This document shows positions 4,179 through 63,167 of a stretch of 64,000 bases of DNA, piece by piece (within the stretch, counting starts at the first letter, position 1; each line of letters begins with the position of its first letter). The DNA lies in NCBI GenBank assembly GCA_029259915.1, contig JAJDED010000028.1:62001-126000 (forward strand), given 5' to 3'. The translations under genes were made by a program, and so were the position numbers. This DNA comes from Planctomycetota bacterium. Its GTDB lineage: Bacteria; Planctomycetota; Planctomycetia; Pirellulales; Lacipirellulaceae. The notes beneath the pieces are model-generated. The model saw only the letters and a program-made list of their open reading frames with translations. It was not told the DNA's origin and did no database searches.

Positions 4179-4258
4179 GCGGTTAGCCATTCGTTGTCAG
4201 CTTTGGTAGGCTAGTTTCATCTGAAAAAAACTAACTGCTAATCGCTAACAGCTACAAA
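4179..4258. repeat. heptad array with inverted arm before coaE
   Basis: Four 7-bp units CTAACTG, CTAATCG, CTAACAG and CTACAAA run from 4231 to 4258. A degenerate inverted arm (GCGGTTA, GCCATTC, GTTGTCA) lies at 4179-4199. The array ends three bases before the coaE start, where a Shine-Dalgarno sequence would be expected. Confidence 0.7.
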
Positions 4259-4261
4259 ACC

Positions 4262-4873
4262 ATGCACATCCTCGGACTCACCGGAGGCATCGCCAGCGGG
4301 AAATCGACGGTTGCCAGCGAATTGGCCGCGCTGGGGGCGGTTGTGCTTGTCGCGGACGAAGCGGCGCACCGGGCCATCAATCTTCCCCAAGTGAAAAGTG
4401 TTTTAGTCGAACGGTGGGGCAACGGATTTCTCGATTCGGTGGGCGACGTCGACCGTCAAAAGGTAGCCCAGCGAGTCTTTTCGCCTAACGATGAGAAGCT
4501 GGTAGAACTGAAATTTCTGCAGAGCGTCCTCCACCCACTGCTCCGGGAGCAATTCGAAGCCCGCCTAGAAACGCTGCGAGGGCAGGGCACTCCGGTCGCG
4601 GTGATCGACGCCCCGCTACTCATCGAGGCGGGATGGGAAGACCTGTGCGATAGTGTGCTTTTTGTCGATACGCCGGAAAATGTGCGGCTCGAGCGGACTC
4701 GGCAGCGTGGTTGGGCGGAGCAAGATTTTCTCCGGCGCGAGTCGGTCCAAATGCCGATAGAAGAAAAGCGGCGTCTGTCGACGCGAGCGATTGTAAATGA
4801 CGGTTCTCTCGAAGACTTACGAAAACAGGTGCGCGGAACCTACCACGAGCTGGCCGAGACAGACTCTCGGTAA
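4262..4873 (+). CDS. coaE: dephospho-CoA kinase
   Basis: Last step of coenzyme A synthesis: ATP-dependent phosphorylation of the 3'-hydroxyl of dephospho-CoA in the cytosol. 203 residues, normal for the family. A P-loop GLTGGIASGKST (residues 5-16) begins right after the start. Further family blocks are ADEAAHRA (D of the dephospho-CoA site), VLHPLLREQ and VIDAPLLIEAGW, then the lid-like R-rich segment ERTRQRGW. The ATG is placed by the P-loop position. No Shine-Dalgarno; a heptad array abuts the start. Transcribed ahead of rho but separated by 282 bp. Confidence 0.95.
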   Translation: MHILGLTGGIASGKSTVASELAALGAVVLVADEAAHRAINLPQVKSVLVERWGNGFLDSVGDVDRQKVAQRVFSPNDEKLVELKFLQSVLHPLLREQFEARLETLRGQGTPVAVIDAPLLIEAGWEDLCDSVLFVDTPENVRLERTRQRGWAEQDFLRRESVQMPIEEKRRLSTRAIVNDGSLEDLRKQVRGTYHELAETDSR

Positions 4874-4985
4874 GCCCCCCGCCAAAAAGGCCCAATCCTG
4901 CGACTAGCTAGACTTCCCAAACGGGCCTTGGCCTGCCATACTAATAGACCACGTCATTTGGTTTTGAGGGCGTCAATGCCTTCTC

Positions 4986-5007
4986 AGCTAAGCCGCAAGC
5001 GGCTAGC
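4986..5007. repeat. short palindrome with CCGCAAGCGG core
   Basis: AGCTAAGCCGCAAGCGGCTAGC forms a near-perfect dyad in the coaE-rho gap. Related cores occur at 8778-8814, 32773-32805 and 61949-61969, so this is a dispersed tag rather than a gene-specific site. Confidence 0.55.
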
Positions 5008-5155
5008 CCTGATGTGCGTTAACAAATAAAAAACCTTTTCCTGCTCCGCACGGAACACTACTTGCGAGCACCCACCTAAACCTTTAATCAGTAGCCCCGC
5101 CTTTTGGCGCCTTTCGTGCGCCGAGACCAAACGCTTCTTTTCCAGGAGTCCTTCG

Positions 5156-6634
5156 ATGTCTGAGACCAGCAACCGCGGTCCGCGGCACGGTCGTTCGCAT
5201 TCGCGCAAACGCCACGCGCCCAATAACCAGCAAGCCGACGGTATCGATAGCCAACGGCTTGCCGAGTTAGATCGCGAAGAGCCGCTTTCCATCGCGGAGG
5301 AACTCGACAAAGCCGCCGAACGCGTTCGGCGGGTTGGCAAGTCGATCGAGCGAACCGACAAGCCCGACCCTAACGTTCATATTGCCAAGCTACAACGCAT
5401 GAGCGTCCCGGAGCTTATCGAAGTTGCCAATCAAGAGGGCGTCGAAGAAACCACTGGGGTAAAAAAGCAAGATCTGATTTTCCGCATTCTCAAAAAGCGG
5501 GTGAAGCTCGACGGCATGATGTCCGGCGAGGGAACGCTCGAAATCCTGCCGGACGGCTTTGGGTTTCTGAGGAGCCCCGACTACCACTATTTGTCGTGCC
5601 CCGACGATATTTACGTTTCGCCCAGCCAGATTCGACGATTCGGGTTGCGGACCGGAGCGACTGTGGCGGGCACCATTCGGCCGCCCAAAGAAAACGAGCG
5701 TTACTTCGCCCTGTTGCGAGTCGAAGCGATCAACGGACAGGATCCAAATTTGCTGTCAAAGAAAATCTTCTTCGACAACCTCACGCCCAACCATCCCGAC
5801 GAACGCATCGTCATGGAAACCAGTGCCCAAGAAGTCGCAATGCGCGTGGTCGACATGATTGTCCCCATCGGCTTCGGACAGCGCGGTTTGATCGTGAGCC
5901 CTCCGCGTGCGGGAAAAACCATCCTGATGCAGAAGATGGCACAAAGCGTTCTGACTAATTATCCAGAAGCCCATGTCATCATGCTGCTGATCGACGAACG
6001 ACCCGAAGAAGTCACCGACATGGAGCGTCAGGTCAAAGGCACCCACTGCGAGGTGATTAGCTCCACCTTCGACGAACCCTCGTCGCGCCATATTCAAGTT
6101 GCAGACATGGTCATCGAAAAAGCCAAACGGATGGTCGAATACGGTCACGACGTCGTGATCTTTCTCGATTCCATCACACGGCTGGCCCGGGCGTGGAACG
6201 CCGAATGCCCCAGCTCGGGCAAAGTGCTCTCCGGGGGTATCGACGCCAATGCCATGCAGCGCCCCAAGCGGTTCTTCGGCTCCGCACGCAAAGTGGACGA
6301 AGGCGGGTCGCTCACCATCATCGCCACCGCATTGGTCGACACGGGCAGCCGGATGGATGAGGTGATTTTTGAAGAATTCAAAGGCACCGGCAACCAGGAA
6401 ATCGTGCTTGATCGCCGCTTGGTCGACAAACGCATCTGGCCGGCAATCGACATCACCCGTAGCGGAACGCGCCGCGAAGAGATGCTGATGGACCCCGAAG
6501 AACACCGCCGGGTATGCATGTTGCGGCGAGTGCTAAACGACATGGATTCGCCCGATGCCATGGAATTACTCACGACTCGGTTGGCAAAAACCAAGTCGAA
6601 CGCCGAATTTTTGATGAGCATTAAGGAGGAGTAG
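5156..6634 (+). CDS. rho: transcription termination factor Rho
   Basis: Hexameric RNA helicase that ends untranslated transcripts. 492 residues, longer than the roughly 420 of E. coli. An N-terminal charged extension of about 65 residues ([14 protein letters not shown]) precedes the Rho_N segment. The primary RNA-binding cold-shock-like fold follows ([15 protein letters not shown], then [10 protein letters not shown]). The ATPase core has VSPPRAGKT (Walker A, near residue 250), [26 protein letters not shown] (Walker B) and the R-loop region [11 protein letters not shown] good AGGAG lies before the ATG. It heads a rho-ribH-nusB-ftsY string in which each following junction carries a heptad array. 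Confidence 0.97.
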
Positions 6635-6689
6635 GGGGAAAGGAGGAAGGCGGAAGGCGGATTTCCCCCCTCCGCCTTCCTCCCTCCCC
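6634..6689. repeat. heptad hairpin array between rho and ribH
   Basis: Eight consecutive 7-bp units start at the last base of the rho stop codon: GGGGGAA, AGGAGGA, AGGCGGA, AGGCGGA, TTTCCCC, CCTCCGC, CTTCCTC, CCTCCCC. The purine-rich left half is nearly complementary to the pyrimidine-rich right half, giving a stem of about 20 bp. The ribH start follows 11 bp later without a Shine-Dalgarno. Confidence 0.75.
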
Positions 6690-6700
6690 CTTATGCAGGT

Positions 6701-7174
6701 TTGGCAAATACACTCAAATCCGAGGCAATTGACAACTCCGATCACTTCGCGATCGTGGTCGCCGAATGGAATCGTTCGATTACCGAAAAGCTGCTCGACG
6801 GAGCGCTGCAGATATTGCATGCCGCGGGAGTGCCCAAGGAAAATGTTACGGTCGCTTGGGTGCCGGGGGCGTGGGAAATACCGCTCGTGGCCCAACGTCT
6901 GGCAAGAAGTGGCCAGGTGGCCAGCGTCATTTGTTTAGGCGCAGTCATCCGTGGTGAAACGAGTCACGACCAACACATCAATCGAGGCGTGAGCCTCGCC
7001 CTGAGCCAGGTCGCCCTGGCGACGGATATCCCGGTTTTGTTCGGCATTTTGACCTGCGAATCGATGGAACAAGCGATCCACCGCGCGGGGGGGAACGTCG
7101 GCAACAAAGGAACCGAATGTGCCGAGGCAGCCCTACAAATGGTCGGATTGCTTAAGAGTTGTCCGAAAGAATAG
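6701..7174 (+). CDS. ribH: 6,7-dimethyl-8-ribityllumazine synthase
   Basis: Penultimate riboflavin step: condensation of 5-amino-6-ribitylaminouracil with dihydroxybutanone phosphate, usually in a 60-mer shell. 157 residues. Family blocks visible: HFAIVVAEWN (substrate-stacking Trp), VPGAWEIPL, CLGAVIRGETSHDQHIN (catalytic His region) and VLFGILTCESMEQA. The chosen start is TTG at 6701. The nearby ATG at 6693 is in another frame and no ATG or GTG precedes the first conserved block, so TTG initiation is inferred. No Shine-Dalgarno. Riboflavin synthase lies 35 kb away at 41551. Confidence 0.93.
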   Translation: MANTLKSEAIDNSDHFAIVVAEWNRSITEKLLDGALQILHAAGVPKENVTVAWVPGAWEIPLVAQRLARSGQVASVICLGAVIRGETSHDQHINRGVSLALSQVALATDIPVLFGILTCESMEQAIHRAGGNVGNKGTECAEAALQMVGLLKSCPKE

Positions 7175-7184
7175 AATGTGTGAA

Positions 7185-7273
7185 GCGGAGAGCTTAGTGC
7201 TAAGAGCTAACAGCCAGAATAATTGAAGCCTTCCCATCTGGCTCTTAGCTCTCTGCCCTTAGCTCTCAGCTGC
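7185..7273. repeat. heptad hairpin array between ribH and nusB
   Basis: Left arm 7185-7218 (GCGGAGA, GCTTAGT, GCTAAGA, GCTAACA, GCCAGA) and right arm 7237-7273 (TCTGGCT, CTTAGCT, CTCTGCC, CTTAGCT, CTCAGCT) are mutually complementary around an 18-bp loop. Confidence 0.8.
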
Positions 7274-7304
7274 CCCATCATCACCACCCCAAAAAGTCTC
7301 CCCC

Positions 7305-7727
7305 ATGCCCCCTCGTAGTCGCGCACGCGAAGTTGCACTGCAAGCGTTGTTTCAAGAGGATTTGAATCCTCGAGACTCGCGGGATCAGATTGCGCCTTTC
7401 TTGCAATCGCGGCTGCAACAACCGGAATTGCGCGTTTTTGCCGAATCGCTCGTCTTGGGGGTGTTGCGAAACCAAGCGGAGCTCGATGCGCTGCTCGAGT
7501 CGAAGGCCGACAATTGGAGTCTTGGCCGCATGGCCGCCACCGATCGAAACATCATGCGATTGGGAGCCTACGAGATTCGCTACGCCGACACCCCCGACCG
7601 GGTTGCCATCGACGAAGCGGTGGAACTCGCCAAGCGCTTCGGCTCCGCCCAATCGTCCCAATTCGTAAACGGAATTCTCGACAAGCTAATACTACGACAA
7701 GAAGACAAGGAGGAAAGTGAAGAATAG
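7305..7727 (+). CDS. nusB: transcription antitermination factor NusB
   Basis: All-helical protein that with NusE binds boxA RNA during rRNA antitermination. 140 residues, normal length. The N-terminal RSRAREVALQALFQ block and the C-terminal block DRNIMRLGAYEIRY…PDRVAIDEAVELAKRFG…FVNGILDKL are diagnostic. It sits between two heptad hairpins. The bases before its ATG are C-rich with no Shine-Dalgarno. The ribH-nusB pairing is common in bacteria. Confidence 0.95.
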   Translation: MPPRSRAREVALQALFQEDLNPRDSRDQIAPFLQSRLQQPELRVFAESLVLGVLRNQAELDALLESKADNWSLGRMAATDRNIMRLGAYEIRYADTPDRVAIDEAVELAKRFGSAQSSQFVNGILDKLILRQEDKEESEE

Positions 7728-7815
7728 CTAATAGCGGAGAGCTAAGAGCTGAGAGCCAGAGGAAAAGCTTCCAATCTTCTGGCTCTCAGCTCTCCGCTCT
7801 CAGCCCTCAGCTCTC
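7727..7815. repeat. heptad hairpin array between nusB and ftsY
   Basis: Left arm units GCTAATA, GCGGAGA, GCTAAGA, GCTGAGA, GCCAGAG (7727-7761) begin on the last base of the nusB stop. Right arm units TTCTGGC, TCTCAGC, TCTCCGC, TCTCAGC, CCTCAGC (7777-7811) are complementary. The array is very similar to the ribH-nusB one. Confidence 0.8.
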
Positions 7816-7825
7816 TTCCCCCATC

Positions 7826-8770
7826 ATGGGTTTGTTTGAAAAATTTCGTCGCGGATTGACCAAGACGGCCAATATCTTAAAGACCGACGTTCGCGATTTG
7901 TTCAAAAGCGAGGGCCGGCTGATCGACGATGCGTTTCTCGACGAAATGCGAGCCCTGTTGTTCAAAACCGATATGGGCTACGACTCCGTGGAAGAAATCG
8001 TTGACGAAGTCTCCGACAAATTGCGTGGCCGGGTGGTCACGCTCGAAGAAGTGGTCGCCACCTGGAAAAGCAAACTTGCCGCGCTGATGGCCCAGGATAG
8101 CTCGCCGATCAACTATGCCGCGAGTGGCCCCACGGTCATTATGGTTTGCGGCGTGAACGGCGCGGGAAAAACCACGTCGATTGCCAAGCTGGCGCACCTG
8201 ATCAAGTCGGAAGGAAAAACCGTGGTGCTCGGCGCCGGCGACACCTTCCGGGCAGCGGCCGTCCAGCAATTGACCATCTGGGCCGAGCGATTGGGTGTCG
8301 ACATCGTCACCGGCGAAGACGGAGCCCATCCCGCCTCGGTCGCTTACCGGGCCGTGGAGCAGTGCATTGCCACGGGAGCCGACGTTTGCATTGTCGACAC
8401 GGCAGGCCGTTTGCAGACACAAAAAAATCTGATGGCGGAGTTGACCAAGATCCAAGGTTCGATTCGCAAGCAAATCCCCGAAGCCCCACACGAAGTCCTC
8501 TTGGTTCTCGACGCCACCACAGGACAAAACGGTATCAGCCAAGCCAACAATTTTACCGACGCCGTGGATTGCACCGGAATCGTGCTGGCCAAACTCGACG
8601 GCACCGCCAAAGGGGGCGTCGTGGTCGCCATCCGCCAACAAGTGGGACTGCCCGTGAAATATGTGGGAGTCGGCGAAAGCCCCGAAGATTGGGCCCTCTT
8701 TAGCCCCAACGACTTCGTCGATGCCCTGTTCGCCGAAGTCGGCGCAGACGCCCCCGCTTCAGCCGGCTAG
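7826..8770 (+). CDS. ftsY: signal recognition particle receptor FtsY
   Basis: SRP receptor GTPase that docks ribosome-nascent chain complexes at the membrane. 314 residues: the N domain and G domain are complete, while the long acidic A domain of E. coli FtsY is absent. The amphipathic N-terminus (GLFEKFRRGLTKT) probably binds lipid. GTPase motifs: GVNGAGKTTSIAKLA (G1), DTFRAAAVQQL, DTAGRLQTQKNLM (G3), and AKLDGTAKGG (G4). It starts 10 bp after a heptad array with no Shine-Dalgarno. Followed by a dyad, not a T-rich terminator. Confidence 0.96.
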   Translation: MGLFEKFRRGLTKTANILKTDVRDLFKSEGRLIDDAFLDEMRALLFKTDMGYDSVEEIVDEVSDKLRGRVVTLEEVVATWKSKLAALMAQDSSPINYAASGPTVIMVCGVNGAGKTTSIAKLAHLIKSEGKTVVLGAGDTFRAAAVQQLTIWAERLGVDIVTGEDGAHPASVAYRAVEQCIATGADVCIVDTAGRLQTQKNLMAELTKIQGSIRKQIPEAPHEVLLVLDATTGQNGISQANNFTDAVDCTGIVLAKLDGTAKGGVVVAIRQQVGLPVKYVGVGESPEDWALFSPNDFVDALFAEVGADAPASAG

Positions 8771-8777
8771 TACCGCT

Positions 8778-8814
8778 AAACCGCAAGCGTTTGGCCAATC
8801 ACCGCTTGCGGTTT
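8778..8814. terminator. dyad downstream of ftsY
   Basis: AAACCGCAAGCG and CGCTTGCGGTTT form a perfect 12-bp stem around a 13-base loop, starting 8 bp after the ftsY stop. There is no T tract, so it may be an RNA-stabilising stem or a copy of the CCGCAAGCGG tag rather than a true terminator. Confidence 0.5.
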
Positions 8815-8952
8815 CGCCAATTCGTCCTTCACGTGCCTAGCTGCGCGTCAGTCGCTGATTAGTTCCCAGGCAATCTCTAACCGGCCGTTGAGTTCATACA
8901 AAAAACGATCTTTCAGACCGTTCGCTCAACCATCTATCTCATCAAGACTTGC

Positions 8953-9008
8953 AACAAAGTCTGCAACTCTGCGCACTTTGTTAACAAGGTTTGGCACAAC
9001 GGTTGCGT
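8953..9008 (+). promoter_or_regulatory. sigma-54-type promoter upstream of amt
   Basis: TTGGCACAACGGTTGCG at 8991-9007 matches the -24/-12 consensus (TGGCAC, five bases, TTGC) with exact spacing. Just upstream, AACAAAGT (8953-8960) and ACTTTGTT (8975-8982) form an inverted repeat that could bind an enhancer protein. The start of amt is about 105 bp downstream of the expected +1. The 351-bp gap 8771-9121 holds this and the ftsY dyad. Confidence 0.6.
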
Positions 9009-9121
9009 ATGCACCAATCGCATTAGTTTGTACTCACCGGAGACTCTTATGGCTGCACAAGAAGTTTGCCACCAGGCTCTCTGAACATCCTCCCTCCTGA
9101 CAATTTGCCAAGGACGTTTGC

Positions 9122-10516: not shown

Positions 10517-10598
10517 TGTACTGTTGTGTGTCGTAGCCCCCGGCGGAAGCCGGTGGGAACCGCTGGCTCCCGCCAGTAACTAGAAATTTGACCCAGCA

Positions 10599-10656: not shown

Positions 10657-10662
10657 TCATTC

Positions 10663-10752
10663 GATTTGGGATTTCGGAATGCGGAGTGCGGATTTATGAT
10701 ACAACACTAGCGGGACGTAAGTTAATTCCGCATTCCGAAATCCGCATTCCGA
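10663..10752. repeat. heptad hairpin array before the PII gene
   Basis: Left arm units GATTTGG, GATTTCG, GAATGCG, GAGTGCG, GATTTAT (10663-10697) and right arm units ATTCCGC, ATTCCGA, AATCCGC, ATTCCGA (10725-10752) are inverted copies. The array ends 7 bp before the ATG. Confidence 0.75.
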
Positions 10753-10759
10753 ACTCACC

Positions 10760-11107: not shown

Positions 11108-11136
11108 CAGCATCTCGAAAGCATAGTCGAAAAAGA

Positions 11137-11556: not shown

Positions 11557-11562
11557 GATTTA

Positions 11563-13118
<1,556 letters not shown>

Positions 13119-13133
13119 CTATAAGATCATGGC

Positions 13134-13175
13134 TTAGTCAGTTGTCAATTGTTAGTTACTAGCGCCTAGCAACTA
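13134..13175. repeat. heptad array between atpG and atpD
   Basis: Six units: TTAGTCA, GTTGTCA, ATTGTTA, GTTACTA, GCGCCTA, GCAACTA. The last contains the atpG stop codon (CTA at 13173-13175, TAG on the minus strand). Confidence 0.75.
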
Positions 13176-14054
13176 GTTTAATGCCTCGACGCCGCCGATC
13201 AGGTCCATCAACTCTGAGGTGATGCGGCCTTGGCGGGCACGGTTGTATTGCATGCTGAGTTGTTTGATCAACTCGCCGGCGTTTTCGGTAGCGGCTTTCA
13301 TCGCCACCATCCGGGCTATTTGTTCGCTCACAGCCGAATCAAGAAAACATTTGAACAGTTTTACTTTGAAGCTCGTCGGCACGACCTCTTCAAGAATGCT
13401 TTCCGGCGAGGGCAAGAACTCGTATTGCGTTGCTGCGCCCGCGGCCTCTTCCTCCGCCGTGTCATCACCCAGAGAACCCAGCGGCAGCAATGTTTCCACA
13501 GTCAACTCCTGCCGCGAGATGCTTACAAATTTGGTGTAAACGACATCCAGCCGATCGAGTTTGCCTGTGATGTACTCTTCGAGATAGCGGCTTGCGATTT
13601 CGTCGACTTCGTCGAACGACGGTTTATCCTCGAACTGTGTAAATGCCCGATCGACCGCAACGTCGCGGTATCCGAAACCGGCAATGCCCTTCTTCCCGGA
13701 GATTTCCACCTGGACCTCGGGCAGTTCACTTTTCAATTCTCGGTAGCGCGCCAGACCCGCACGGATCAGCGTGCCATTGAACCCGCTACAAAAACCGCGA
13801 TTGGCCGTCAGCACCAGCAGCTTGCCTCGCTGCGGAGCATCGCGCGATTCCAACAGCGGATGGCTCACCTGCAGGCCACTCTTGGTCAGGTCCGACACCA
13901 ATTGCGTGATCCGATCGGTATACGAAGTGGCCGCCGAAGCGCGGTCCATGGCCTTCTTAAAACGGGCTGTCGCGATCAATTCCATCGTGCGCGTAATGCG
14001 GCGCATGTTGCGAATCGACTTGCGACGTTTATCAAGTTCCCTAGGATTGGCCAT
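13173..14054 (-). CDS. atpG: ATP synthase F1 subunit gamma
   Basis: Central rotor shaft, 293 residues. N-terminal coiled-coil helix (RELDKRRKSIRNMRRITRTM) and the C-terminal helix with MKAATENAGELIKQLSMQYN and RQGRITSELMDLIGG are the most conserved blocks. LTANRGFCSGFNGTLIR marks the middle Rossmann-like domain. The start follows directly from a heptad array, without a Shine-Dalgarno. The stop codon is likewise inside a heptad of the next array. Confidence 0.95.
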   Translation of the reverse strand: MANPRELDKRRKSIRNMRRITRTMELIATARFKKAMDRASAATSYTDRITQLVSDLTKSGLQVSHPLLESRDAPQRGKLLVLTANRGFCSGFNGTLIRAGLARYRELKSELPEVQVEISGKKGIAGFGYRDVAVDRAFTQFEDKPSFDEVDEIASRYLEEYITGKLDRLDVVYTKFVSISRQELTVETLLPLGSLGDDTAEEEAAGAATQYEFLPSPESILEEVVPTSFKVKLFKCFLDSAVSEQIARMVAMKAATENAGELIKQLSMQYNRARQGRITSELMDLIGGVEALN

Positions 14055-14055
14055 G

Positions 14056-14097
14056 TTTGTTAGTTGTTGGTTGCTAAATGCTAATTGCTAACTGCTA
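14056..14097. repeat. heptad array between atpA and atpG
   Basis: Six units: TTTGTTA, GTTGTTG, GTTGCTA, AATGCTA, ATTGCTA, ACTGCTA. It fills almost the whole gap between the atpA stop and the atpG start. Confidence 0.8.
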
Positions 14098-15677: not shown

Positions 15678-15733
15678 TTAGTTGCTAGTTTTTAGTTGCT
15701 AGTTTCTGATTGCTGATCGCTGACTGCTGATCG
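15678..15733. repeat. heptad array between atpH and atpA
   Basis: Eight uninterrupted units: TTAGTTG, CTAGTTT, TTAGTTG, CTAGTTT, CTGATTG, CTGATCG, CTGACTG, CTGATCG, the clearest array in the window. It ends one base before the atpH stop codon complement. Confidence 0.85.
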
Positions 15734-15734
15734 C

Positions 15735-16373
15735 TCAATTCTCCATAAACCGCTCTGGCCGATTCTGAATCGCCTCGGTGGCACGGGCCATCATCTGTGT
15801 GCGAGCACGTTCGAAACTAGAACGGGCCGAAGCATCGTAAACTCGGTCGCCCAGGCGGATCACAAAACCGGCAACCAAATCGGGATTGACCGACGTCTTG
15901 ACGACCGGTTCTGTCCCTAATGATTTTTGCAGCAATGCTACGATTTCCTGCAGCAGTTCTGGCGCCGGTTCCAGGGCCAGTTCGATCTGCACCGACGAGC
16001 GGTTGTTTCGCGACTGCCAAAGTCCTAACGCTGAACGTACTACTTGCCTAAGAAAACCAAGCCGACCGTGCATTGCCATCACTTTGAGAAAACTGAGCCC
16101 CGTCGTCGACAACCGCGTGCCAAACACGCGGTCGAGCATTTCGAGCTTTTCATCTTGCGACACCAAAGCCGAGCCTAGAATCTGCTCAAACTCAGGAAAC
16201 TTGTCGAGGACTTCCGAAACCAACGCTCCAAGCTCGTCGATCAGCGCGTCCTGATCCGCAGGACTTCCCGCGGCATCGAGCCCGGCCTGCGCATAAATCT
16301 TCGCCAGCTTTTCGACGTCGACGTCGAAAACTGTCTCGCGGGGCTTATGTTTGGTGGCACTCTCGGTCATCAA
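15735..16373 (-). CDS. atpH: ATP synthase F1 subunit delta
   Basis: Peripheral stator subunit (OSCP), 212 residues. Helical N-terminal domain (AKIYAQAGLDAAG, LGALVSEVLDKFPEF) and C-terminal domain with QIELALEPAPELLQEIVALLQ and the conserved VNPDLVAGFVIRLGDRVYDASARS end. The start overlaps the atpF stop by four bases, suggesting translational coupling. N-terminal residues 1-17 are an extra polar stretch. Confidence 0.93.
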   Translation of the reverse strand: MMTESATKHKPRETVFDVDVEKLAKIYAQAGLDAAGSPADQDALIDELGALVSEVLDKFPEFEQILGSALVSQDEKLEMLDRVFGTRLSTTGLSFLKVMAMHGRLGFLRQVVRSALGLWQSRNNRSSVQIELALEPAPELLQEIVALLQKSLGTEPVVKTSVNPDLVAGFVIRLGDRVYDASARSSFERARTQMMARATEAIQNRPERFMEN

Positions 16374-43067: not shown

Positions 43068-43144
43068 CTCTCGCAAAGGCGCTAAGGCGCAAAAAACAGA
43101 TATTTATTCTTGATATGCTTTGCGCCTTAGCGCCTTTGCGAGAG
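43068..43144. repeat. perfect 26-bp inverted repeat between psd and pssA
   Basis: 43068-43093 and 43119-43144 are exact reverse complements (CTCTCGCAAAGGCGCTAAGG…), loop 25 bp. The arms contain 8-bp direct units GCAAAGGC and GCTAAGGC. Could be an RNA stem or small repeat element. Confidence 0.75.
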
Positions 43145-51837: not shown

Positions 51838-51971
51838 CACCACAAAGGCACGGAGAACACAGAGAAGAAATGTTTCGACACTTATCTTCACTAATCTGAA
51901 GGTATTAGCGCAGATAAGTGAAGATAAGTGTTCTTAATTCTCTCCTCCGTGACCTCTGTGTCTCCGCGGTA
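51838..51971. repeat. nested inverted repeats between mdh and the SirB1-like gene
   Basis: Outer arms 51838-51869 (CACCACAAAGGCACGGAGAA…) and 51941-51971. Inner arms GACACTTATCTTCACTAATC (51877-51896) and CAGATAAGTGAAGATAAGTG (51911-51930). Both pairs are imperfect. Looks like one repeat nested in another. Confidence 0.65.
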
Positions 51972-55939: not shown

Positions 55940-55971
55940 TAACTAGCGCCTAACAACTAACAACTAGCAAC
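55937..55971. repeat. heptad array between flhA and flhF
   Basis: Five units TAATAAC, TAGCGCC, TAACAAC, TAACAAC, TAGCAAC, beginning at the flhA stop codon and ending 6 bp before the flhF start. Every unit holds a stop triplet. Confidence 0.85.
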
Positions 55972-55976
55972 TAACT

Positions 55977-57131: not shown

Positions 57132-57154
57132 AAACAAGCGGTAAGCCAAACAAC

Positions 57155-57182
57155 TAGCCCCTAGCTCCTAACTCCTAACTCC
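57155..57182. repeat. heptad array between flhF and flhG-like
   Basis: Four units TAGCCCC, TAGCTCC, TAACTCC, TAACTCC. A related fifth unit, TCATCC, leads to the ATG. Confidence 0.75.
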
Positions 57183-57188
57183 TCATCC

Positions 57189-58133
57189 ATGTCCGACCAA
57201 GCCGATCAACTCCGCCAACTCGTACAAGAAAAGGTGCAATCCCGACCGAACCAAGGTCCCGGGCTGCCGTTAGTTGTTTTAAGCGGCGGAACCACTGGCG
57301 TAGGAACCACAACTTTGACGATTCAACTGGCCCGCGAGCTGGCAATGCTTGGCAAGAGGTCGGTACTCGTCGACGCCAACCTCGCGAAACCTTCCCTTGC
57401 GCAGCGCATGAATGTTTCAGTCGATAGTTCATTGGCCGACGTCCTTAACGGGCATCGCACGGCTGCCGAGGTTTTGCAGCCGGTGGGCGAATCGATCCGA
57501 TTGATTGCCGGTCGGTTGACGCCCCAATCGCCTCCCGACATGAGCCACGCCGCCTTAGACCGGGCTTACACTGAAATACGCCATCTGCAATCTCATGCCG
57601 ATGTAGCTCTGGTGGAAGTGGGCAGTGGCATGAATCCTTGGGTCCAACATTGGTGGCAAGCTGCCGAGCAAGTGTTCCTGGTCTCCACCACCGAAAAAAA
57701 ATCGCTAATGGATAGCTACACCGCCGTAAAAATTGCCGCGAGAAGCGTTGCTCATGAAAAGGTCTGTTTGGTAATCAATCGGTGCGAAGATCGCGGTTTG
57801 GGAAAGCGAGTCGCCGAACGGTTTTCCTCGACTTGCCAAAAATTCCTAGAACTACACGTCAACACAACCGTCTCGGCGCCACCATTCGAAGAGCAACAGC
57901 ATGCAGGAAGACTCCCGGAATACTCAAGCACCCGCGATGTCGACTTTCGCCACGCAGTGCGACTGCTAGCAACCGAGGTCATCAGCCGATCGCTGATAAT
58001 CAGCGGCCGAGTCCCCGCGCGGCATGCTCAAAAAACTGTAGCACATACGCTTGCAACAGCGCATCAGGCAGCCGCTCTCCAAGAACGGCAAATGGAAGCA
58101 AAAGCGGTGTCAAAAAACCCTAGGGTTACCTAG
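57189..58133 (+). CDS. flhG: FlhG/MinD-like protein with degenerate ATPase motifs
   Basis: 314 residues, P-loop family partner of FlhF. The Walker A region reads LSGGTTGVGTTTLTIQLA: the catalytic Lys (GKT) is Thr40 and the signature Lys of the MinD group is also missing. The Walker B Asp position is Glu143 (LVEVGSG rather than IDTGAG). VDANLAKPSL retains the switch Asp. It is probably a pseudo-ATPase that can still bind FlhF. Basic N-terminus and C-terminal tail. Symbol by context. Confidence 0.8.
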   Translation: MSDQADQLRQLVQEKVQSRPNQGPGLPLVVLSGGTTGVGTTTLTIQLARELAMLGKRSVLVDANLAKPSLAQRMNVSVDSSLADVLNGHRTAAEVLQPVGESIRLIAGRLTPQSPPDMSHAALDRAYTEIRHLQSHADVALVEVGSGMNPWVQHWWQAAEQVFLVSTTEKKSLMDSYTAVKIAARSVAHEKVCLVINRCEDRGLGKRVAERFSSTCQKFLELHVNTTVSAPPFEEQQHAGRLPEYSSTRDVDFRHAVRLLATEVISRSLIISGRVPARHAQKTVAHTLATAHQAAALQERQMEAKAVSKNPRVT

Positions 58134-58200
58134 TTGCAAAAAAATCTCATAACAAAAAATGACTTTGACTCATAGTTGGATGACTCAATGACGATAAGAA

Positions 58201-58536
58201 ATGAAAGTCGGATCGTTCGCAAACAGCCGTCAAGATGGCGCGTTTGCAGAAAGTTTGTCGCCTCCAGGAGACCAGATTTTGGCACGCACTTATGCGGTCG
58301 TGATGGCCCTGCTGGCAATGCTTGTCGTGTTACTGCGAGCAATGAAAAACGGCGCGGGTGTCGAGGGCACCATTGCCAACGCATTTGCTTGGATGGGACT
58401 TCTAGGAGTCGTCGGCTTAGTCGTAGGACTCATCGCCCAGGCGACGGTTGACCAATCGGTACTCTCTACTGTCCAGGCCGAATTGGCTTCCACATCCAGT
58501 AGCGATCCTGACGTCCAACCAGCCGACGCAAACTAG
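58201..58536 (+). CDS. small membrane protein between flhG and the sigma gene
   Basis: 111 residues. Polar N-terminus, then two hydrophobic helices (TYAVVMALLAMLVVLLRAM, FAWMGLLGVVGLVVGLIAQA) and an Ala/Ser/Asp-rich tail. Flagellar clusters often contain such small membrane proteins. No family recognised. Start ATG at 58201; the 67-bp gap after flhG shows no clear ribosome site. Confidence 0.55.
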   Translation: MKVGSFANSRQDGAFAESLSPPGDQILARTYAVVMALLAMLVVLLRAMKNGAGVEGTIANAFAWMGLLGVVGLVVGLIAQATVDQSVLSTVQAELASTSSSDPDVQPADAN

Positions 58537-58679
58537 TCGACAAGAAGAACACTCGACAAGAAGAACACCAAAACACGCCAATTAGCTAAAAAACATAGAG
58601 AACGGACTCTCGATCACACAACTTCATGAGTCGGCCGACCAAAGCGGCGCGACGACCGAAGAGCATCACGGAGGATTGC

Positions 58680-59465
58680 ATGGCTACGACTCTCGCCGCA
58701 AAAGAGGAAATCGTTGAGGTTTGGCAACAGTTCAAAAAGGACCAAAGCCGTCGCGATTTGCGAAACCGGCTCGTAGAAAACTACCTGCCATTAGTGAAAT
58801 ACAACGGCGAGCGCATCTGGTCGCGTTTACCTGACGGCGTCGAACTCGACGATTTAATCTCCGCAGGCGTCTTCGGGTTGATGGATGCCATCAAGGCCTT
58901 CGATCTTTCGCGCGGAGTGAAGTTCGAAACCTACTGCGTCCCTCGTATCCGCGGAGCCATGCTCGACGAACTCCGAAGCATGGACTGGGTCCCTCGGCTA
59001 GTACGCTCGAAAGCCAGCAAACTCAACGAGGCCGTAAGACAACTCGAAGCCCAACTGGGCCGACATCCCACCGAGATCGAGTTGGCTGCGAAAATGGAAC
59101 TGACCGTTGCCGAGTTGGAAAAGCTCATTTCCGATGCCAATGCGGTCGGACTGATCAGTCTCAACAAAAAATGGTACGAGACCGACAGCTACAAAGACGT
59201 CCGCGAAATCGACATTCTCGAAGATAAAAAAGGCGAAGATCCCACACGTCGCATTCAAAAGTCGGACCTCATGCGGCTAGTGACCAGAGGCCTCAACCGC
59301 AACGAACGGCTGATCATCATTCTCTACTACTACGAAGAGATGACGATGAAAGAAATCGGCTCCACCTTGGATTTGAGCGAAAGCCGCGTGAGCCAAATGC
59401 ACAGCGCAATTGTCCAACGCCTTCAAGGCCAACTCGGCCGCCGCCGCCCCGAGTTTGGAACGTGA
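58680..59465 (+). CDS. fliA: FliA/WhiG family RNA polymerase sigma factor
   Basis: 261 residues from ATG at 58680, which has a perfect GGAGG before it; the 58626 frame adds 18 unsupported residues. Region 2 contains NRLVENYLPLVKYNGERI and DDLISAGVFGLMDAIKAFDL; region 3 LGRHPTEIELAAKM; region 4 ends with ERLIIILYYYEEMTMKEIGS and LDLSESRVSQMHSAIVQRL. Drives late flagellar genes. Terminated by a hairpin inside a heptad array. Confidence 0.94.
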   Translation: MATTLAAKEEIVEVWQQFKKDQSRRDLRNRLVENYLPLVKYNGERIWSRLPDGVELDDLISAGVFGLMDAIKAFDLSRGVKFETYCVPRIRGAMLDELRSMDWVPRLVRSKASKLNEAVRQLEAQLGRHPTEIELAAKMELTVAELEKLISDANAVGLISLNKKWYETDSYKDVREIDILEDKKGEDPTRRIQKSDLMRLVTRGLNRNERLIIILYYYEEMTMKEIGSTLDLSESRVSQMHSAIVQRLQGQLGRRRPEFGT

Positions 59466-59470
59466 GGAAA

Positions 59471-59582
59471 GTCAAGAGACAAGAGACAAGAGTCCAGAGT
59501 CTAGGGCGAAAACACACTAGCCGCGACGCTTTGCGTCGCGGCTTTTCTCTTGCTCTGGACGCTAGACTCTTGACTCTTGTCT
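59471..59582. repeat. heptad hairpin array with embedded terminator after fliA
   Basis: Left arm GTCAAGA, GACAAGA, GACAAGA, GTCCAGA, GTCTAGG (59471-59505) and right arm TCTTGCT, CTGGACG, CTAGACT, CTTGACT, CTTGTCT (59548-59582) are complementary. Between them lies an unrelated stem. Confidence 0.85.
59519..59546 (+). terminator. Rho-independent terminator after fliA
   Basis: CCGCGACGC / GCGTCGCGG with loop TTT (59521-59541), followed by CTTTT. Nested in the loop of the heptad hairpin. Confidence 0.8.
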
Positions 59583-59660
59583 CTCCACGAGGTGCAATAG
59601 AGGTATCTGGCAGGTTTTCGCGTTGGGGCCGAAACTTGCCGAGGAACAGAGAGCACCGGC

Positions 59661-61259
59661 ATGAACTTTTCTACTGAAAGAATTTCGAATCAAACCGTCA
59701 TTCGTCATTCGTCATTCGTCATTGCCTCCCGCGGCCTAACATTGATCGAAATGCTAGTCGGCCTGGCAATCACATTGGTGATGATGGCTGCCGTGGTCAA
59801 CCTGTTTGCCAACATCGGCGGCGGCGTGAAGTTGCGCCAAGCATCAATGGAAATGGGCGGCCAAATCCGCATCGCCCGCGCCCAACTCTACAACGACCTA
59901 ACCGCCGCCACCTGCCGCGCACTCCCCTGGCGACACCCGGCCGACGCCGAGGGGTATATCGAAATCGTCGAAGGGCTGCACTCTGATAAACAGCCGTCTG
60001 CGCAATTTCCTAAAACTACCGCCGACGTCACATTTGTACCCAGCAGCCAAGAAGCGGATCCTGTGACTGACGTTGTGCTCGGGCTAGATGGCATGGGCCT
60101 TGGTGATTACGACGACATTTTGGCACTGACTGTTCGCAGCGAACTGGCACCGTTCACCGGACGAGCGCTAGATACCGCCGGTAGCACGATAACCATCGAG
60201 TCGTCGCTGGCCGAAGTGATTTGGTATGCAGTCGAAAACCCTGACGATCGTTCCCTCGGCGAACCCGGAATGCGATCCGTCTATCGCCGCGAGTTGCTGA
60301 TTGCACCGTGGGTCGAACCCATAGATTTAACCATCCTACCTGGAGGAATCGCTGCCGACGACGCGACTAGGTTTTATCAACGTTATGACATATCCGCACG
60401 ATTTGATAATGCGACGAACAAATGGATACCCAACTCGCTTAGCGATTTGACCAAACGAGAGAATAGGTTTGCGCACTTCTTTGACAACGCCGTGCCAAAT
60501 AGAGGTTATCCACACGCATTGCTGCAGGATTCCATTACTCCGAATGCTTCGTCCCCAGCGTTTCCTGCGGTAGGAGCAACAAGTCCTCTTCACCCGTTTG
60601 GTTTACCTTTCGAATGGGATCCAGCCGATCCGAATCCAGCAGATCCGACTTTGCCGCCGACGACAGACCGCCAGGGGGAAGACCTGATGCTTAATGACGT
60701 ACTAGCGTTTGACGTACGGGTATTTGATCCAGGTGCACCGCTTTATGACAGCGGAGTTGCAATTGTTGGGCCTAGCGATTTCGGATGGGATATTACGTAT
60801 CTTAATATTGTTAATGAGCCGGCTGACGGCGATTTCGATGACATGGTAGGTCAGGGGGCATATGTGGACCTTGGGTATGGTACTTCTGCAGGAGTTAGCC
60901 CTTTCCCGAACAATCCCCTCCTGCCAGCACCTCAACCTCTTCGCCCAGCCTTTGATGATGGAACTGCCGGTAAACTGATTAATGGTTCGGCAGTGTATGA
61001 CACTTGGTCGTTCCACTACGAAAATGATGGACTAAATCAGGATGGTGATACTAACCCGGATGGCACTCCGCTGATCGACGAAGGTACAAACGGCTTGGAC
61101 GACGACGGAATCAACGGCGTCGACGACATCGGCGAGCGCGAAACCGCGCCGCCTTATGATGTACCCTTGCGAGGAATGCAAGTAAAACTGCGCATCTACG
61201 AAACCGAAACCCGCCAAATCCGCGAAGCCACCGTCACCCGCAGTTTTGTACAGCAGTAG
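59661..61259 (+). CDS. prepilin-type surface protein
   Basis: 532 residues. Type IV prepilin-like leader with cleavage before Leu in SRGLTLIEMLVGLAITLVMM, then a long polar body rich in Asp/Asn/Pro (DPADPNPADPTLPPTTDRQ). The first ~25 residues are partly encoded by four exact GTCATTC-type heptamers (59697-59724, translating RHSSFVI). The true start may therefore lie after the array or the array may be coding. Extracellular or pseudopilus minor subunit expected. Distinct from the DUF1559 group. Confidence 0.72.
   Translation: MNFSTERISNQTVIRHSSFVIASRGLTLIEMLVGLAITLVMMAAVVNLFANIGGGVKLRQASMEMGGQIRIARAQLYNDLTAATCRALPWRHPADAEGYIEIVEGLHSDKQPSAQFPKTTADVTFVPSSQEADPVTDVVLGLDGMGLGDYDDILALTVRSELAPFTGRALDTAGSTITIESSLAEVIWYAVENPDDRSLGEPGMRSVYRRELLIAPWVEPIDLTILPGGIAADDATRFYQRYDISARFDNATNKWIPNSLSDLTKRENRFAHFFDNAVPNRGYPHALLQDSITPNASSPAFPAVGATSPLHPFGLPFEWDPADPNPADPTLPPTTDRQGEDLMLNDVLAFDVRVFDPGAPLYDSGVAIVGPSDFGWDITYLNIVNEPADGDFDDMVGQGAYVDLGYGTSAGVSPFPNNPLLPAPQPLRPAFDDGTAGKLINGSAVYDTWSFHYENDGLNQDGDTNPDGTPLIDEGTNGLDDDGINGVDDIGERETAPPYDVPLRGMQVKLRIYETETRQIREATVTRSFVQQ
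59697..59724. repeat. heptad array inside the prepilin leader
   Basis: Three exact GTCATTC units and one GTCATTG. Lies in frame within the predicted leader, unlike all other arrays here. Confidence 0.8.
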
Positions 61260-61332
61260 GCGCTAGTTGCTAGGCGCTAGGGACTAGTTTTAGGATTGGA
61301 ATCTAGCAACTAGCGCCTAGCCAACTAACAAC
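61257..61332. repeat. heptad hairpin array after the prepilin gene
   Basis: Units TAGGCGC, TAGTTGC, TAGGCGC, TAGGGAC, TAGTTTT (61257-61291), then TAGCAAC, TAGCGCC, TAGCCAAC, TAACAAC (61304-61332). The first TAG is the stop codon of the prepilin gene. 61257-61273 and 61303-61319 are exact reverse complements (17 bp). Confidence 0.85.
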
Positions 61333-61337
61333 TACTC

Positions 61338-61652
61338 ATGCACTCCATCCGCTTACGCCATCCGTGGGACTGTGAAGTAGGGGAGGGCAGGGCGGTGTGG
61401 TCGCGCGTTTTCAATTGGCCCAATGAGCTCAATTCACAGGAAACGCTTTGGCTGGCTGTGGAGCCGCTGCCAGACGCGGCTCAAATCAGGCTTAATGGCC
61501 AGTTGCTTGACACCGCGAACCCCTCGGGCCGTTTCGACATCTCTCAAATAGTGTCGAAATCGAATCACCTGGAAATCGTGCTTCCTGACACACTCGGTGC
61601 CGACGAGAGCGAATGCCCCCTGGACGTGCGATTAGAAGTCCACGAAGGGTAG
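61338..61652 (+). CDS. hypothetical protein, beta-rich
   Basis: 104 residues. LWLAVEPLPDAAQIRLNGQLL and GRFDISQIVSKSNHLEIVLPD resemble a single galactose-binding-like or glycosidase-associated beta-sandwich. No signal peptide. Start ATG 5 bp after a heptad array, no Shine-Dalgarno. Function unknown. Confidence 0.6.
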   Translation: MHSIRLRHPWDCEVGEGRAVWSRVFNWPNELNSQETLWLAVEPLPDAAQIRLNGQLLDTANPSGRFDISQIVSKSNHLEIVLPDTLGADESECPLDVRLEVHEG

Positions 61653-61673
61653 GGGGGGCTCATCTAAACTTGC

Positions 61674-61895
61674 AGTGGGTCAGGATCAGTTTACGTTTTT
61701 TTGGCCAAAGGCCATTGTCACCGTAGCCTGGGGCAACGCCCCAGGTCTGAAGATGATCCAGAGGTTCGGCTGAAGGCCGTACTCACTCGCGCTCAAGGTG
61801 AATATGGCCTTTAGCCAAAAATGTTCTGCCTCTTGATTCCTGGGGCGTTGCCCCAGGCTACGGTGAAACAAGGCCTTCGGCCAAATTGACCCACT
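61674..61895. repeat. MITE-like inverted-repeat element
   Basis: Begins AGTGGGT and ends ACCCACT. Contains a perfect 27-bp inverted pair (61719-61745 and 61839-61865, CACCGTAGCCTGGGGCAACG…) and outer TTGGCCAAAGGCC / GGCCTTCGGCCAA arms. It fills most of the 354-bp gap between the hypothetical gene and asd. No coding frame. Confidence 0.75.
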
Positions 61896-61948
61896 ACGCG
61901 TAAACTTGGCACGTTGCCGAGCCGGGCGGTGCAATTTATAATGCTGGG

Positions 61949-61969
61949 CTACCGCTTGCGGTTTAGCGG
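61949..61969. repeat. CCGCTTGCGG tag upstream of asd
   Basis: CTACCGCTTGCGGTTTAGCGG, the inverse of the cores at 4986, 8778 and 32773. 38 bp before the asd start. Confidence 0.5.
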
Positions 61970-62006
61970 TAACATTGCAATTTTTTTTACAATTGGGAGT
62001 AATACT

Positions 62007-63020
62007 GTGATCGAGTCGATTGCCATCGTTGGTGCCACCGGTGCTGTGGGACGTCTTATCCGCGAGCTGTTGGAGCAACGTGATTTTCCGTACGAAAAAA
62101 TCACGTTCCTGGCATCAAAACGATCGGCCGGCACGACAATTTCCTACAAAGGCGAAGATCACGAAGTCAAACTGCTGTGCCCGGAAGCGTTCGACGATAT
62201 CGATCTGGCCATCGGCAGCACGCCCGACCCCGTGGCAGCGGAATTCTGTCCCTGGGCCGTGGAACGTGATTGCGTTGTGGTCGACGAAAGCGGCTACTAC
62301 CGCATGGATCCCAAAGTGCCGTTGGTGGTGCCGGAAATCAATCCCGAAGCCGCGCTAAAACATGAGGGCATCATTTCCAGCCCGAATTGTTCGACTACTC
62401 AAATGGTGTTAGCGATGAAGCCGTTGCACGACGCGGGAAAAATTCGCCGCGTCATCGTCAGCACTTACCAGGCAACCAGCGGAGCAGGGGTGCAAGGGCA
62501 GGAAGATCTCATCGCGGGCAGCCGGGCATTTCTGGAAAACGAAGACTACGCCTATCAGGCATTTTCCCATCCGATCGCATTCAATCTGATCCCGCAGATC
62601 GGCTCCGAAAAGCATGCCGGCTACACGAGCGAAGAAATGAAAATGGTGGTCGAAACTCAGAAGATCTTCAACGACGAATCGATTCGAGTATGTCCCACCT
62701 GTGTGAGGGTGCCGGTAGAAAATTGCCATAGCGAAAGTATTCTCGTGGAAACCGAGAAGAAAATCAGTGTTGCCGAAGCGCGTGAACTTTTTGCCGCTAC
62801 GCCGGGTATTACCGTCGTCGACGATTTGGCAGCAGGCGCGTATCCTATGCCGGCCGACTGCAGCGGGGACGACGCTGTGTTTATCGGCCGCATTCGCGAA
62901 GACCTGTCCTGCAACAATGGCTTGGCATTCTGGTGCGTCAGCGACAACCTCCGCAAAGGCGCAGCCACCAACGCCGTGCAAATTGCCGAATTGCTGGTCA
63001 AAAGCCAAGCGACCGTGTGA
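62007..63020 (+). CDS. asd: aspartate-semialdehyde dehydrogenase
   Basis: 337 residues, starting with GTG at 62007 (GGGAGT upstream); the longer frame to 61914 is noncoding in character. Makes aspartate semialdehyde for lysine, threonine and methionine. NADP motif IAIVGATGAVGRLIRELL, active-site Cys in SSPNCSTTQMVLAM, and the FNLIPQIG substrate block. Monocistronic or first of asd-truA. Confidence 0.95.
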   Translation: MIESIAIVGATGAVGRLIRELLEQRDFPYEKITFLASKRSAGTTISYKGEDHEVKLLCPEAFDDIDLAIGSTPDPVAAEFCPWAVERDCVVVDESGYYRMDPKVPLVVPEINPEAALKHEGIISSPNCSTTQMVLAMKPLHDAGKIRRVIVSTYQATSGAGVQGQEDLIAGSRAFLENEDYAYQAFSHPIAFNLIPQIGSEKHAGYTSEEMKMVVETQKIFNDESIRVCPTCVRVPVENCHSESILVETEKKISVAEARELFAATPGITVVDDLAAGAYPMPADCSGDDAVFIGRIREDLSCNNGLAFWCVSDNLRKGAATNAVQIAELLVKSQATV

Positions 63021-63093
63021 GTGAAACTCTTGCAATAAAAAAGATGAACCGCAAGGACGCCAAGAGCGCCAAGAAATGATTAAAGAGATCAGG

Positions 63094-63167
63094 AATCAGA
63101 GGTCGGAGGTCAGAAAACTGGTTTACAAATCCCCTCCGACCTCTGACCTCTGACCTCTGACCTCTAA
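63094..63167. repeat. heptad hairpin array between asd and truA
   Basis: Left arm AATCAGA, GGTCGGA, GGTCAGA (63094-63114) and right arm CCTCCGA, CCTCTGA, CCTCTGA, CCTCTGA, CCTCTAA (63133-63167) are complementary. Outer flanks ACGCCAAGAGCGCCAAG and TTGGCGCCCTTGGCG extend the stem. Confidence 0.85.

Follow-up and report, generated by a model that had tools for sequence, protein, structure and literature searches.

Period-7 hairpin arrays in operon gaps of a planctomycete genome and their possible REP/BIME-like origin

The heptanucleotide repeats of Calothrix are known as STRR. In the accessible parts of the papers cited here, intergenic repeats with a 7-nt unit are described as three heptanucleotides in Calothrix, as GGGGA(C/T)T in Nostoc, as GGGAATC, with some copies inverted, in Xanthomonas (PMC4692102), and as TAACTGA repeats located before start codons in Beggiatoaceae (PMC4679880). 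The latter paper cites Mrazek for the observation that, among long repeats, those with a 7-nt unit are the commonest in most genomes, and broader tandem-repeat surveys exist (PMC12699852, PMC6749651). Palindromic REPs, together with Y1 proteins, have been reported in Planctomycetes (PMC3733652, PMC6006769, as far as the text available to us goes). Here, we analyze tandem arrays of degenerate 7-nt units in the intergenic gaps of a 64,000-nt stretch of planctomycete DNA (the window, G000:C21:62001-126000), part of a 4.2-Mb draft genome (64 contigs) that is referred to below as the own genome. The named relatives that match it best are Planctomycetota, Lacipirellula limnantheis being one of them, and it probably belongs to the Lacipirellulaceae. 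An earlier note on this DNA, made from the sequence alone, had pointed out the arrays and knew of no described system with such a pattern, which goes too far, since heptanucleotide intergenic repeats have been published for cyanobacteria, Xanthomonas, Beggiatoaceae and, by the same partly accessible sources, Chloroflexus.

Period-7 signal and dispersed hairpin families

Arrays were detected as lag-7 segments (match +1, mismatch −1), and gene starts were taken from our own codon-bias caller; distances to start codons are therefore approximate. At score cuts 9, 10, 11 and 12, the window contains 22, 21, 18 and 18 lag-7 segments, of which 21, 20, 17 and 17 are non-coding, against means of 1.0, 0.5, 0.1 and 0.0 in ten dinucleotide shuffles of the whole window. 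At cut 11, lags 4–6 and 8–13 gave 0–1 segments each and the remaining non-7 lags up to 20 gave 0–2, except for lag 14 with 15 segments; lag 21 gave three. A stricter run test over lags 4–30 retrieved eight runs at lag 7, four at lag 14, one at lag 16 and none at any other lag. Between window positions 15746 and 55943, no lag-7 segment was found at cut 9. Over 742 kb of the own genome, 52 arrays were observed in gaps, while about 0.05 were expected from shuffled gaps. Thus, the period-7 arrays are real, as the earlier note had claimed, the shuffling control that it proposed came out in their favor, and a chance origin is ruled out by the shuffles of both the window and the 742 kb of gaps: as in the described heptanucleotide repeats, tandem 7-nt intergenic units occur above chance. 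An assembly artefact is unlikely, because arrays are also present in contigs of the named isolates Rubripirellula obstinata (L095), Rhodopirellula rubra (L067) and Aporhodopirellula aestuarii (L070). A 100-kb stretch of E. coli DNA that includes ribosomal operons had no lag-7 array.

The arrays favor gaps between co-oriented genes. Within the same 742 kb, they occupy 31/277 co-oriented, 3/67 convergent and 4/77 divergent gaps; pooled over a set of 29 genomes, the counts are 111/1063, 13/167 and 9/197 (co-oriented versus the rest, p 0.012), so that the expectation of a signal only between co-oriented genes stands as a preference and fails as a rule. The window is richer than its surroundings, with arrays in 13 of 26 co-oriented gaps of 30–250 nt as opposed to 10 of 158 in the rest of the own genome. 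Background density at cut 12 is 0.63 arrays per 10 kb in the own genome, 0.28 in G006 and 0.61 in G030. Within the first 368 kb, at cut 13, 7 of 36 lag-7 arrays lay inside called open reading frames (ORFs); some of these probably arise because stop-free arrays are read as open frames. Two pairs of overlapping stretches, in G017 and G013, were removed from the pooled orientation counts and, below, from the two-array pairs, the 6/64 count of Shine-Dalgarno (SD) motifs, the median distances to stop and start, the polarity and the 133-gap tally, which left the weight given to each explanation as it was; they were counted twice in the results on heptamer stops, within-genome preference, arm mirroring and unit-position variation, in the shuffled-base SD control, in the G024/G032 alignment set and in the ribosomal-protein and window gap counts.

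Whole hairpins are dispersed in the own genome. A search with the hairpin of the ribH–nusB gap returned 26 matches, including itself, arm-only matches and both strands of some palindromes; the longer ones, 65–88 nt at 73–86% identity, cover both arms and the loop. From the family defined by its AGAGCNN unit, 19 copies were examined (17 plus two in the window). In the 11 copies that were aligned, both window copies among them, the GCCAGA..TCTGGC tip is invariant and the flanks are unrelated. Palindromic units of this family thus stand at many sites of one genome, as REP/BIME units do, counted here irrespective of the intergenic status of individual copies. The element of the asd–truA gap recurs elsewhere in the genome over 156 nt at 88% identity and, partially, over 127 nt at 82%; its period-9 outer arms and heptamer inner arms are copied as a unit, so that this one element has the mosaic of modules known from BIMEs. 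Dispersal is demonstrated for these two families. The earlier note had held that the units are not one mobile sequence, which is contradicted at the ribH–nusB, nusB–ftsY and asd–truA gaps, where arms and loop together are copied elsewhere.

In the sense of the mRNA, the typical order is a stop codon, a G-richer heptamer arm, a loop (median 20 nt), a C-richer arm and a start codon; in 111 gaps, the array lay at a median distance of 9 nt from the stop codon and of 10 nt from the start codon. Among 36 gaps with two arrays, 24 pairs agree at 6–7 of 7 positions, and an inverted fit is better in 31 and a direct fit in 3, in line with the earlier observation that many arrays form inverted arms. Strong inverted repeats (score of at least 14) were present in 18/53 co-oriented array gaps against 58/760 array-free gaps, a comparison in which the locus sets overlap slightly and the best repeat of a few gaps is non-heptameric. 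G exceeds C in the 5′ arm of 43 of 56 arm pairs; this polarity is no proof of a dependence on transcription, because a palindrome reads with equal polarity from either strand. Variants in one arm are not mirrored in the other (12.47 observed versus 12.55 expected in 57 arm pairs, one gap being entered twice), and stems are therefore mostly short paired blocks interrupted by mismatches. Unit-by-unit mirrored copying of the arms was rejected, with 1 of 57 pairs at p<0.05.

The commonest families have 4–5 steady and 2–3 variable unit positions. In TTAG-, TCAG- and AGAG-type arrays (40, 43 and 21 arrays), deviation from the consensus of the respective array affects 4–20% of distinct units at the four core positions and 21–37% at the last two. 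This steady-core pattern was not clear for GAGG, GAGT, AATG and GATT cores (11, 12, 11 and 9 arrays), in which variation is spread or affects other positions. Scored by distinct units, uneven variation is modest and consistent (7/141 arrays singly at p<0.05; overall p 1e-9); scored by distinct letters, it gave no signal (1/141 arrays), and we prefer the former test because the latter saturates. The free-spacer pattern TTAGCN{1,4}TTAGCN{1,4}TTAGC was found in 25 of 59 genomes, the own one included, and in 27 of 199 genomes of the phylum. Its spacers are exactly 2+2 in 145 of 150 matches listed (hand count, the total being at least 150), and the reversed pattern gave 0–4 matches per genome, except for 29 in G022. 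Among the matches listed, all 14 close opposite-strand pairs in relatives are TTAGC-first, and three pairs in G126, a distant member of the phylum, have the opposite order. A long perfect TTAGCTG run of at least 17 units is present in another phylum member (G234:C1:499027-499157).

Over all families, heptamers are diverse rather than few and fixed: 133 array gaps of the 29 genomes yielded 69 canonical heptamers. Preference for the same heptamer inside a genome is weak, alike pairs making up 12.4% within and 8.6% between genomes (p 0.017). In the relative G009, the exact string TTAGCTTTTAGCCGTTAGC occurs in 13 of 33 matches listed, on 11 contigs, and looks like a young dispersed repeat family.

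Arrays of the window and of related genomes

NCBIfam scans, run on 28 of the 51 called genes of the window plus an extra ORF at 61338, identified polA, coaE, rho, ribH, nusB, ftsY, amt, glnB (P-II), flhA, flhF, a MinD/FlhG-like ATPase, a FliA/WhiG sigma factor, asd and truA; the atp genes were named from PF00006 matches, gene order and the labels of the earlier reader. No Rfam match was found in the window, L248 or L249. Folding was tested in five gaps (rho–ribH, ribH–nusB, nusB–ftsY, atpD–atpC and fliA–prepilin) and gave stable structures in four. Arrays described below are on the forward strand, except for those of the atp gaps, which are on the reverse strand.

The rho–ribH hairpin (6628–6692) consists of an AAGGCGG-type 5′ arm at 6628–6661 and a complementary TCCGCCTTCC arm at 6663–6692, with a compact RNA fold of −46.8 kcal/mol (z −5.2). 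The two AGAGCNN-family hairpins follow: in the ribH–nusB gap (7184–7271), arms at 7184–7214 and 7241–7271 enclose the GCCAGA..TCTGGC tip (fold z −5.5), and in the nusB–ftsY gap (7723–7815), arms at 7723–7756 and 7782–7815 fold at −53.6 kcal/mol (z −7.2). The asd–truA hairpin (63088–63165), with a GGTCAGA arm at 63088–63114 (score 10) and a CCTCTGA arm at 63133–63165, sits inside the longer mosaic element with its period-9 outer arms (about 63039–63193). The fliA–prepilin hairpin (59470–59584) has an AGAGTCN arm at 59470–59504 and a CTCTTGA arm at 59555–59584 that agree at 22 of 23 positions; its fold of −72.6 kcal/mol (z −8.4) includes a GCCGCGAC..GTCGCGGC hairpin within the loop, and apart from itself it has arm-length matches only. 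The loop module AGCCGCGAC..GTCGCGGCT, at about 59515–59550 of the window, or a near variant of it is also seen in operon gaps of relatives (e.g., L107, L109, L163 and L249).

The amt–glnB gap (10663–10756) carries a GGATTTC/GCGGAAT arm at 10663–10692 and an ATTCCGC arm at 10725–10756, and it is the upstream part of the gap (about 10519–10589), not the arms, that matches other own-genome loci (80–91% over 46–72 nt). In the atpD–atpC gap (11564–11664), a GGTCAGA-type array past the atpD stop and a CCTAGAT-type array ahead of the atpC start pair poorly, with a fold no better than shuffles (z −0.5); elsewhere in the own genome, this gap has heptamer-level matches of 39–40 nt. The other atp gaps hold lag-7 segments of CTAGTTG/CTAACAA-like units (atpG–atpD, 13137–13176), an array that spans from stop to start (atpA–atpG, 14057–14097), and GCGATCA followed by GCAACTA units without an inverted arm (atpH–atpA, 15679–15746). 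Lag-7 segments of CTAACAA units occupy the whole flhA–flhF gap (55943–55973), CTAACTC/CTAGCCC units lie between flhF and the flhG-like gene (57154–57183), and TAGGCGC/CTAGTTG units follow the prepilin-like gene (61257–61287). The array directly before coaE (CTAACTG/CTAATCG/CTAACAG, 4231–4254) is weak, with a lag-7 score of 9 that passes cut 9 only; one isolated AGCGGTTAGCC unit precedes it by about 50 nt. The prepilin-like ORF contains four perfect CGTCATT units (59696–59723) in frame at its 5′ end (59661–59730); a weak XpsH-like match of this ORF begins at residue 24 (E 7e-4, under the curated cut-off), and the true start codon may be downstream of the array.

Of the gaps that the earlier note had listed, those at ribH, nusB, ftsY, glnB, flhF, the flhG-like gene, the 61338 gene and truA, the four atp gaps, the gap after fliA and the prepilin leader all contain arrays, that at coaE contains the weak one, and no array could be tied to rsmA. 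Its statement that each gap has its own heptamer is right insofar as about seven kinds can be told apart by eye in the window, and needs correction insofar as, again by eye, AGAGCNN and CCTCTGA are each shared by two gaps and CTAGTTG/CTAACAA-like units by about six. The strict period of 7 applies to the arrays it listed and not to sister hairpins: besides the period-9 outer arms near truA, positions 43072–43140 hold two period-8 arrays (CGCAAAGG-type and CTTTGCGC), inverted relative to each other, that form a hairpin built like the heptamer ones. Period-8 hairpins are also present in the atpG–atpD gap of Lacipirellula limnantheis (L030), L121 and L122. Further short repeats of the window are intergenic period-10 tandem duplicates, CACTAATCTT and AGATAAGTGA, near each other and roughly inverted (51879–51930), and a perfect 16-bp tandem repeat in two copies (58537–58568) adjoining an ORF end at 58536. 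Elsewhere in the draft genome, L006 (G000:C1:1-20000) has a GC content of 0.41 versus about 0.54 and is possibly a foreign or mis-binned contig, and L013 (G000:C8), a 2992-bp contig with a G+C count of zero, is probably masked N.

Relatives carry period-7 arrays at some shared operon gaps, usually with other heptamers; recurrence at orthologous gaps, which the earlier note had anticipated, is present and uneven. In 111 relatives, 34 of 285 atp gaps of 30–250 nt have arrays versus 8 of 363 other co-oriented gaps in the same length range, the p of 5e-7 overstating independence because the genomes are related and a few of them contribute several gaps. By site, the counts are 1/45 for H–A, 9/72 for A–G, 11/99 for G–D and 13/69 for D–C. 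The heptamers differ, for example GGTCAGA/CCTAGAT here, CGTCATT in G001, CCCTGAA in G022 and CCGAATC in G042. In the region upstream of ftsY, at cut 11, arrays were found in 7/18 relatives for nusB–ftsY, 4/18 for rho–ribH, 1/20 for ribH–nusB and 0/17 for coaE–rho. In L067 and L070, whose atpD identity is 92%, about 40 nt of array next to the atpD start are identical, in contrast to a diverged first half of the gap; this is a single case.

In the ribosomal-protein loci of 29 genomes, 506 kb in all, there are 116 arrays (2.29 per 10 kb). Their distribution is uneven, with 22 in G024, 19 in G032 and 14 in G027. Arrays occupy 49/313 ribosomal-protein gaps versus 5/137 background gaps of G006 and G030 (p 1e-4), 26/269 versus the same background when G024, G032 and G027 are set aside (p 0.03), and 4/27 versus 5/137 inside G006 and G030 alone (p 0.04). 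In the congeners G024 and G032, 13 of 19 and 8 of 12 co-oriented ribosomal-protein gaps of at least 40 nt have arrays, with quite different heptamers at several shared gaps. The one gap that can be aligned between them, by eye, differs by indels of 7, 7 and 14 nt and two single bases; a change of arm length in whole 7-nt units is thus supported by one alignable pair.

Origin and role of the arrays

We propose, with moderate confidence, that the arrays belong to mobile hairpins of a REP/BIME-like kind, whose heptamer stems are altered by 7-nt slippage and which are tolerated or used in operon gaps, their mobility and role both being putative. The hairpins would have spread via a REP/BIME-like route, and their arms would lengthen and shorten by 7-nt slippage. 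Survival of copies would be highest between the genes of conserved, co-oriented operons: an insertion there would break no promoter, and a stop codon followed by a hairpin, with a C/A-rich, G-poor leader ahead of the next start, may be harmless or useful for translation of the next gene.

A number of observations weigh against this proposal. Dispersal is established for some gaps only, because seven gaps of the window (rho–ribH, atpG–D, atpA–G, atpH–A, flhA–flhF, flhF–flhG and the gap after the prepilin-like gene) have no further full copy in about 0.8 Mb of own DNA, where the lone atpG–D match is the window sequence itself. Among the eight AGAGC-type copies outside the alignment, three have the exact tip and five a deviating one, as judged by eye. 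The alignment of this one family has no conserved tetranucleotide outside the stem and no GTAG/CGTC foot. Y1_Tnp transposases are present in 30 of 35 relatives without a visible relation to array richness, and heptamer arrays lie within 0.9 kb of one of the eight own Y1 loci, a C-rich contig end at another being uncounted; a 32-nt match (84%) to the flhF–flhG-like array lies beside one own Y1 gene. Also adverse are the low recurrence at rho–ribH and ribH–nusB, the lack of arrays in 7 of 29 ribosomal-protein loci, and the background level of the own genome's ribosomal-protein locus. MAFFT placed the indels of the G024/G032 gap elsewhere, unit indels being known from this pair alone, and identity between units declines, weakly, with their distance. 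Finally, in array gaps with an ATG start, a shuffled-base control expected 3.5 SD motifs and 5 of 60 were observed.

The last number belongs to a wider comparison. SD-like motifs are found in 6/64 array gaps versus 213/855 array-free gaps, and array-free gaps exceed their own shuffled-base control (153/564 observed, 78.3 expected). Array gaps are G-poor before the start codon, so the low SD content follows partly from low G. Arrays adjoin start codons in place of an SD, as TAACTGA repeats do. The scarcity of SD motifs and the G-poor leader suggest that initiation without an SD may be tolerated by, or may make use of, the 3′ arm. One may go further and regard the hairpins as a selected intercistronic RNA element, whose hairpin and G-poor 3′ arm insulate genes or serve SD-free initiation, perhaps through S1- or Csp-like proteins at about 7 nt each. 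The concentration of arrays in ribosomal-protein, atp and nusB–ftsY gaps, the filling of most long ribosomal-protein gaps of G024 and G032, the scarcity of SD motifs and the stable folds agree with such an element, and a translational regulation has been proposed for the similarly placed TAACTGA repeats in the available text of PMC4679880. Selection on an RNA structure is hard to reconcile with the unmirrored variation of the arms, with the poor fold of atpD–atpC and with the many relatives in which the same gaps (atpH–atpA, the seven ribosomal-protein loci) are array-free, and we consider it quite unlikely as the main explanation. A related and tentative idea, possible and in our opinion unlikely, concerns some planctomycete lineages, best G024 and G032: there, heptad hairpins could be the usual ribosomal-protein spacer, the heptamer being free to change while three things persist, namely the 7-nt build with its steady and variable positions, the polarity of the arms and a C/A-rich 3′ arm poor in SD motifs, with the translation machinery or a repeat-binding protein reading periodic architecture rather than sequence.

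Purely local slippage during replication, with 7 nt as the favored step, each gap growing its own array and hairpins arising by fold-back or chance, is an unlikely explanation of the whole; a polymerase contact has been put forward for the 7-nt step (Mrazek 2007, as cited in the consulted parts of PMC4679880 and PMC4692102). It accounts for the prominence of period 7 and its multiple 14, for the turnover of array sequences between species and for the 7- and 14-nt length differences of the one pair, the only case in which the earlier note's slippage candidate is borne out by whole-unit steps. It does not account for complete hairpins dispersed with a common tip, for the ratio of inverted to direct arms or for variation that falls on fixed unit positions in the commonest families. 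Two-copy 7-nt runs in array-free gaps exceed shuffles 2–3-fold in three sets of relatives (8 vs. 2.9, 11 vs. 3.8 and 18 vs. 8.4), but hardly in the own genome (9 vs. 6.2), and in all four sets some other lags are equally or more in excess. Since 7 is 1 modulo 3, an array whose unit contains a stop triplet places stop codons in all three frames, and arrays could in principle terminate translation before the next gene. Sense stop triplets are indeed enriched in consensus heptamers (78/145 versus 47.4 expected from letter shuffles), but the antisense strand is equally enriched (83/145 versus 47.0), 37/145 heptamers have no stop on either strand, and the counts of both strands are probably too high, since stop-free arrays are hidden by the gene caller. 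As the excess is not sense-specific, this very improbable function was rejected.

Comparison with known systems

REP/BIME elements, reported in Planctomycetes too (PMC3733652) and often linked to RAYT (TnpA_REP), are dispersed, intergenic and palindromic, form several families per genome and build mosaic composites, and the hairpins described here resemble them in dispersal, location, palindromic build, number of families and mosaic structure. Unlike REP/BIME, they have stems of tandem heptamers, show no GTAG/CGTC foot in the one family aligned, and are concentrated in gaps of core operons; no clear link to Y1 genes emerged from 8 own loci and 35 genomes. With the heptanucleotide repeats of Calothrix, Xanthomonas and Nostoc, they share 7-nt, intergenic, degenerate and sometimes inverted units that vary in length and sequence between related species (PMC4692102, in part), whereas many dissimilar heptamer families per genome, paired inverted arms, a common tip in some families and the presence of other heptamers in orthologous gaps set them apart. 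The closest parallel in position is the Beggiatoaceae TAACTGA repeat, for which the available text of PMC4679880 gives 2–6 heptamers a few nt before the start, over the expected SD site, with downstream translation genes over-represented; there, however, one heptamer per genome is repeated directly (in one case indirectly) and without a predicted hairpin, while here there are many heptamers with often inverted arms.

We found no earlier account of heptamer hairpins of several families in the operons of planctomycetes in the literature searched, whose scope excluded subscription papers, including Mrazek 2007. Should the hairpins of operon gaps have a function, they would provide an SD-free translation start inside core operons, with an architecture conserved without conservation of sequence. 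In practical terms, arrays spoil gene calls, since stop-free ones can be read as coding. They also offer a natural test case for why bacterial intergenic repeats prefer 7 nt. Intergenic heptamer repeats as such are known from Xanthomonas, Nostoc and Beggiatoaceae, and it is the multi-family hairpin form in core operons that looks new: tandem heptamer repeats and dispersed palindromes, treated apart so far, are joined here in one type of element.

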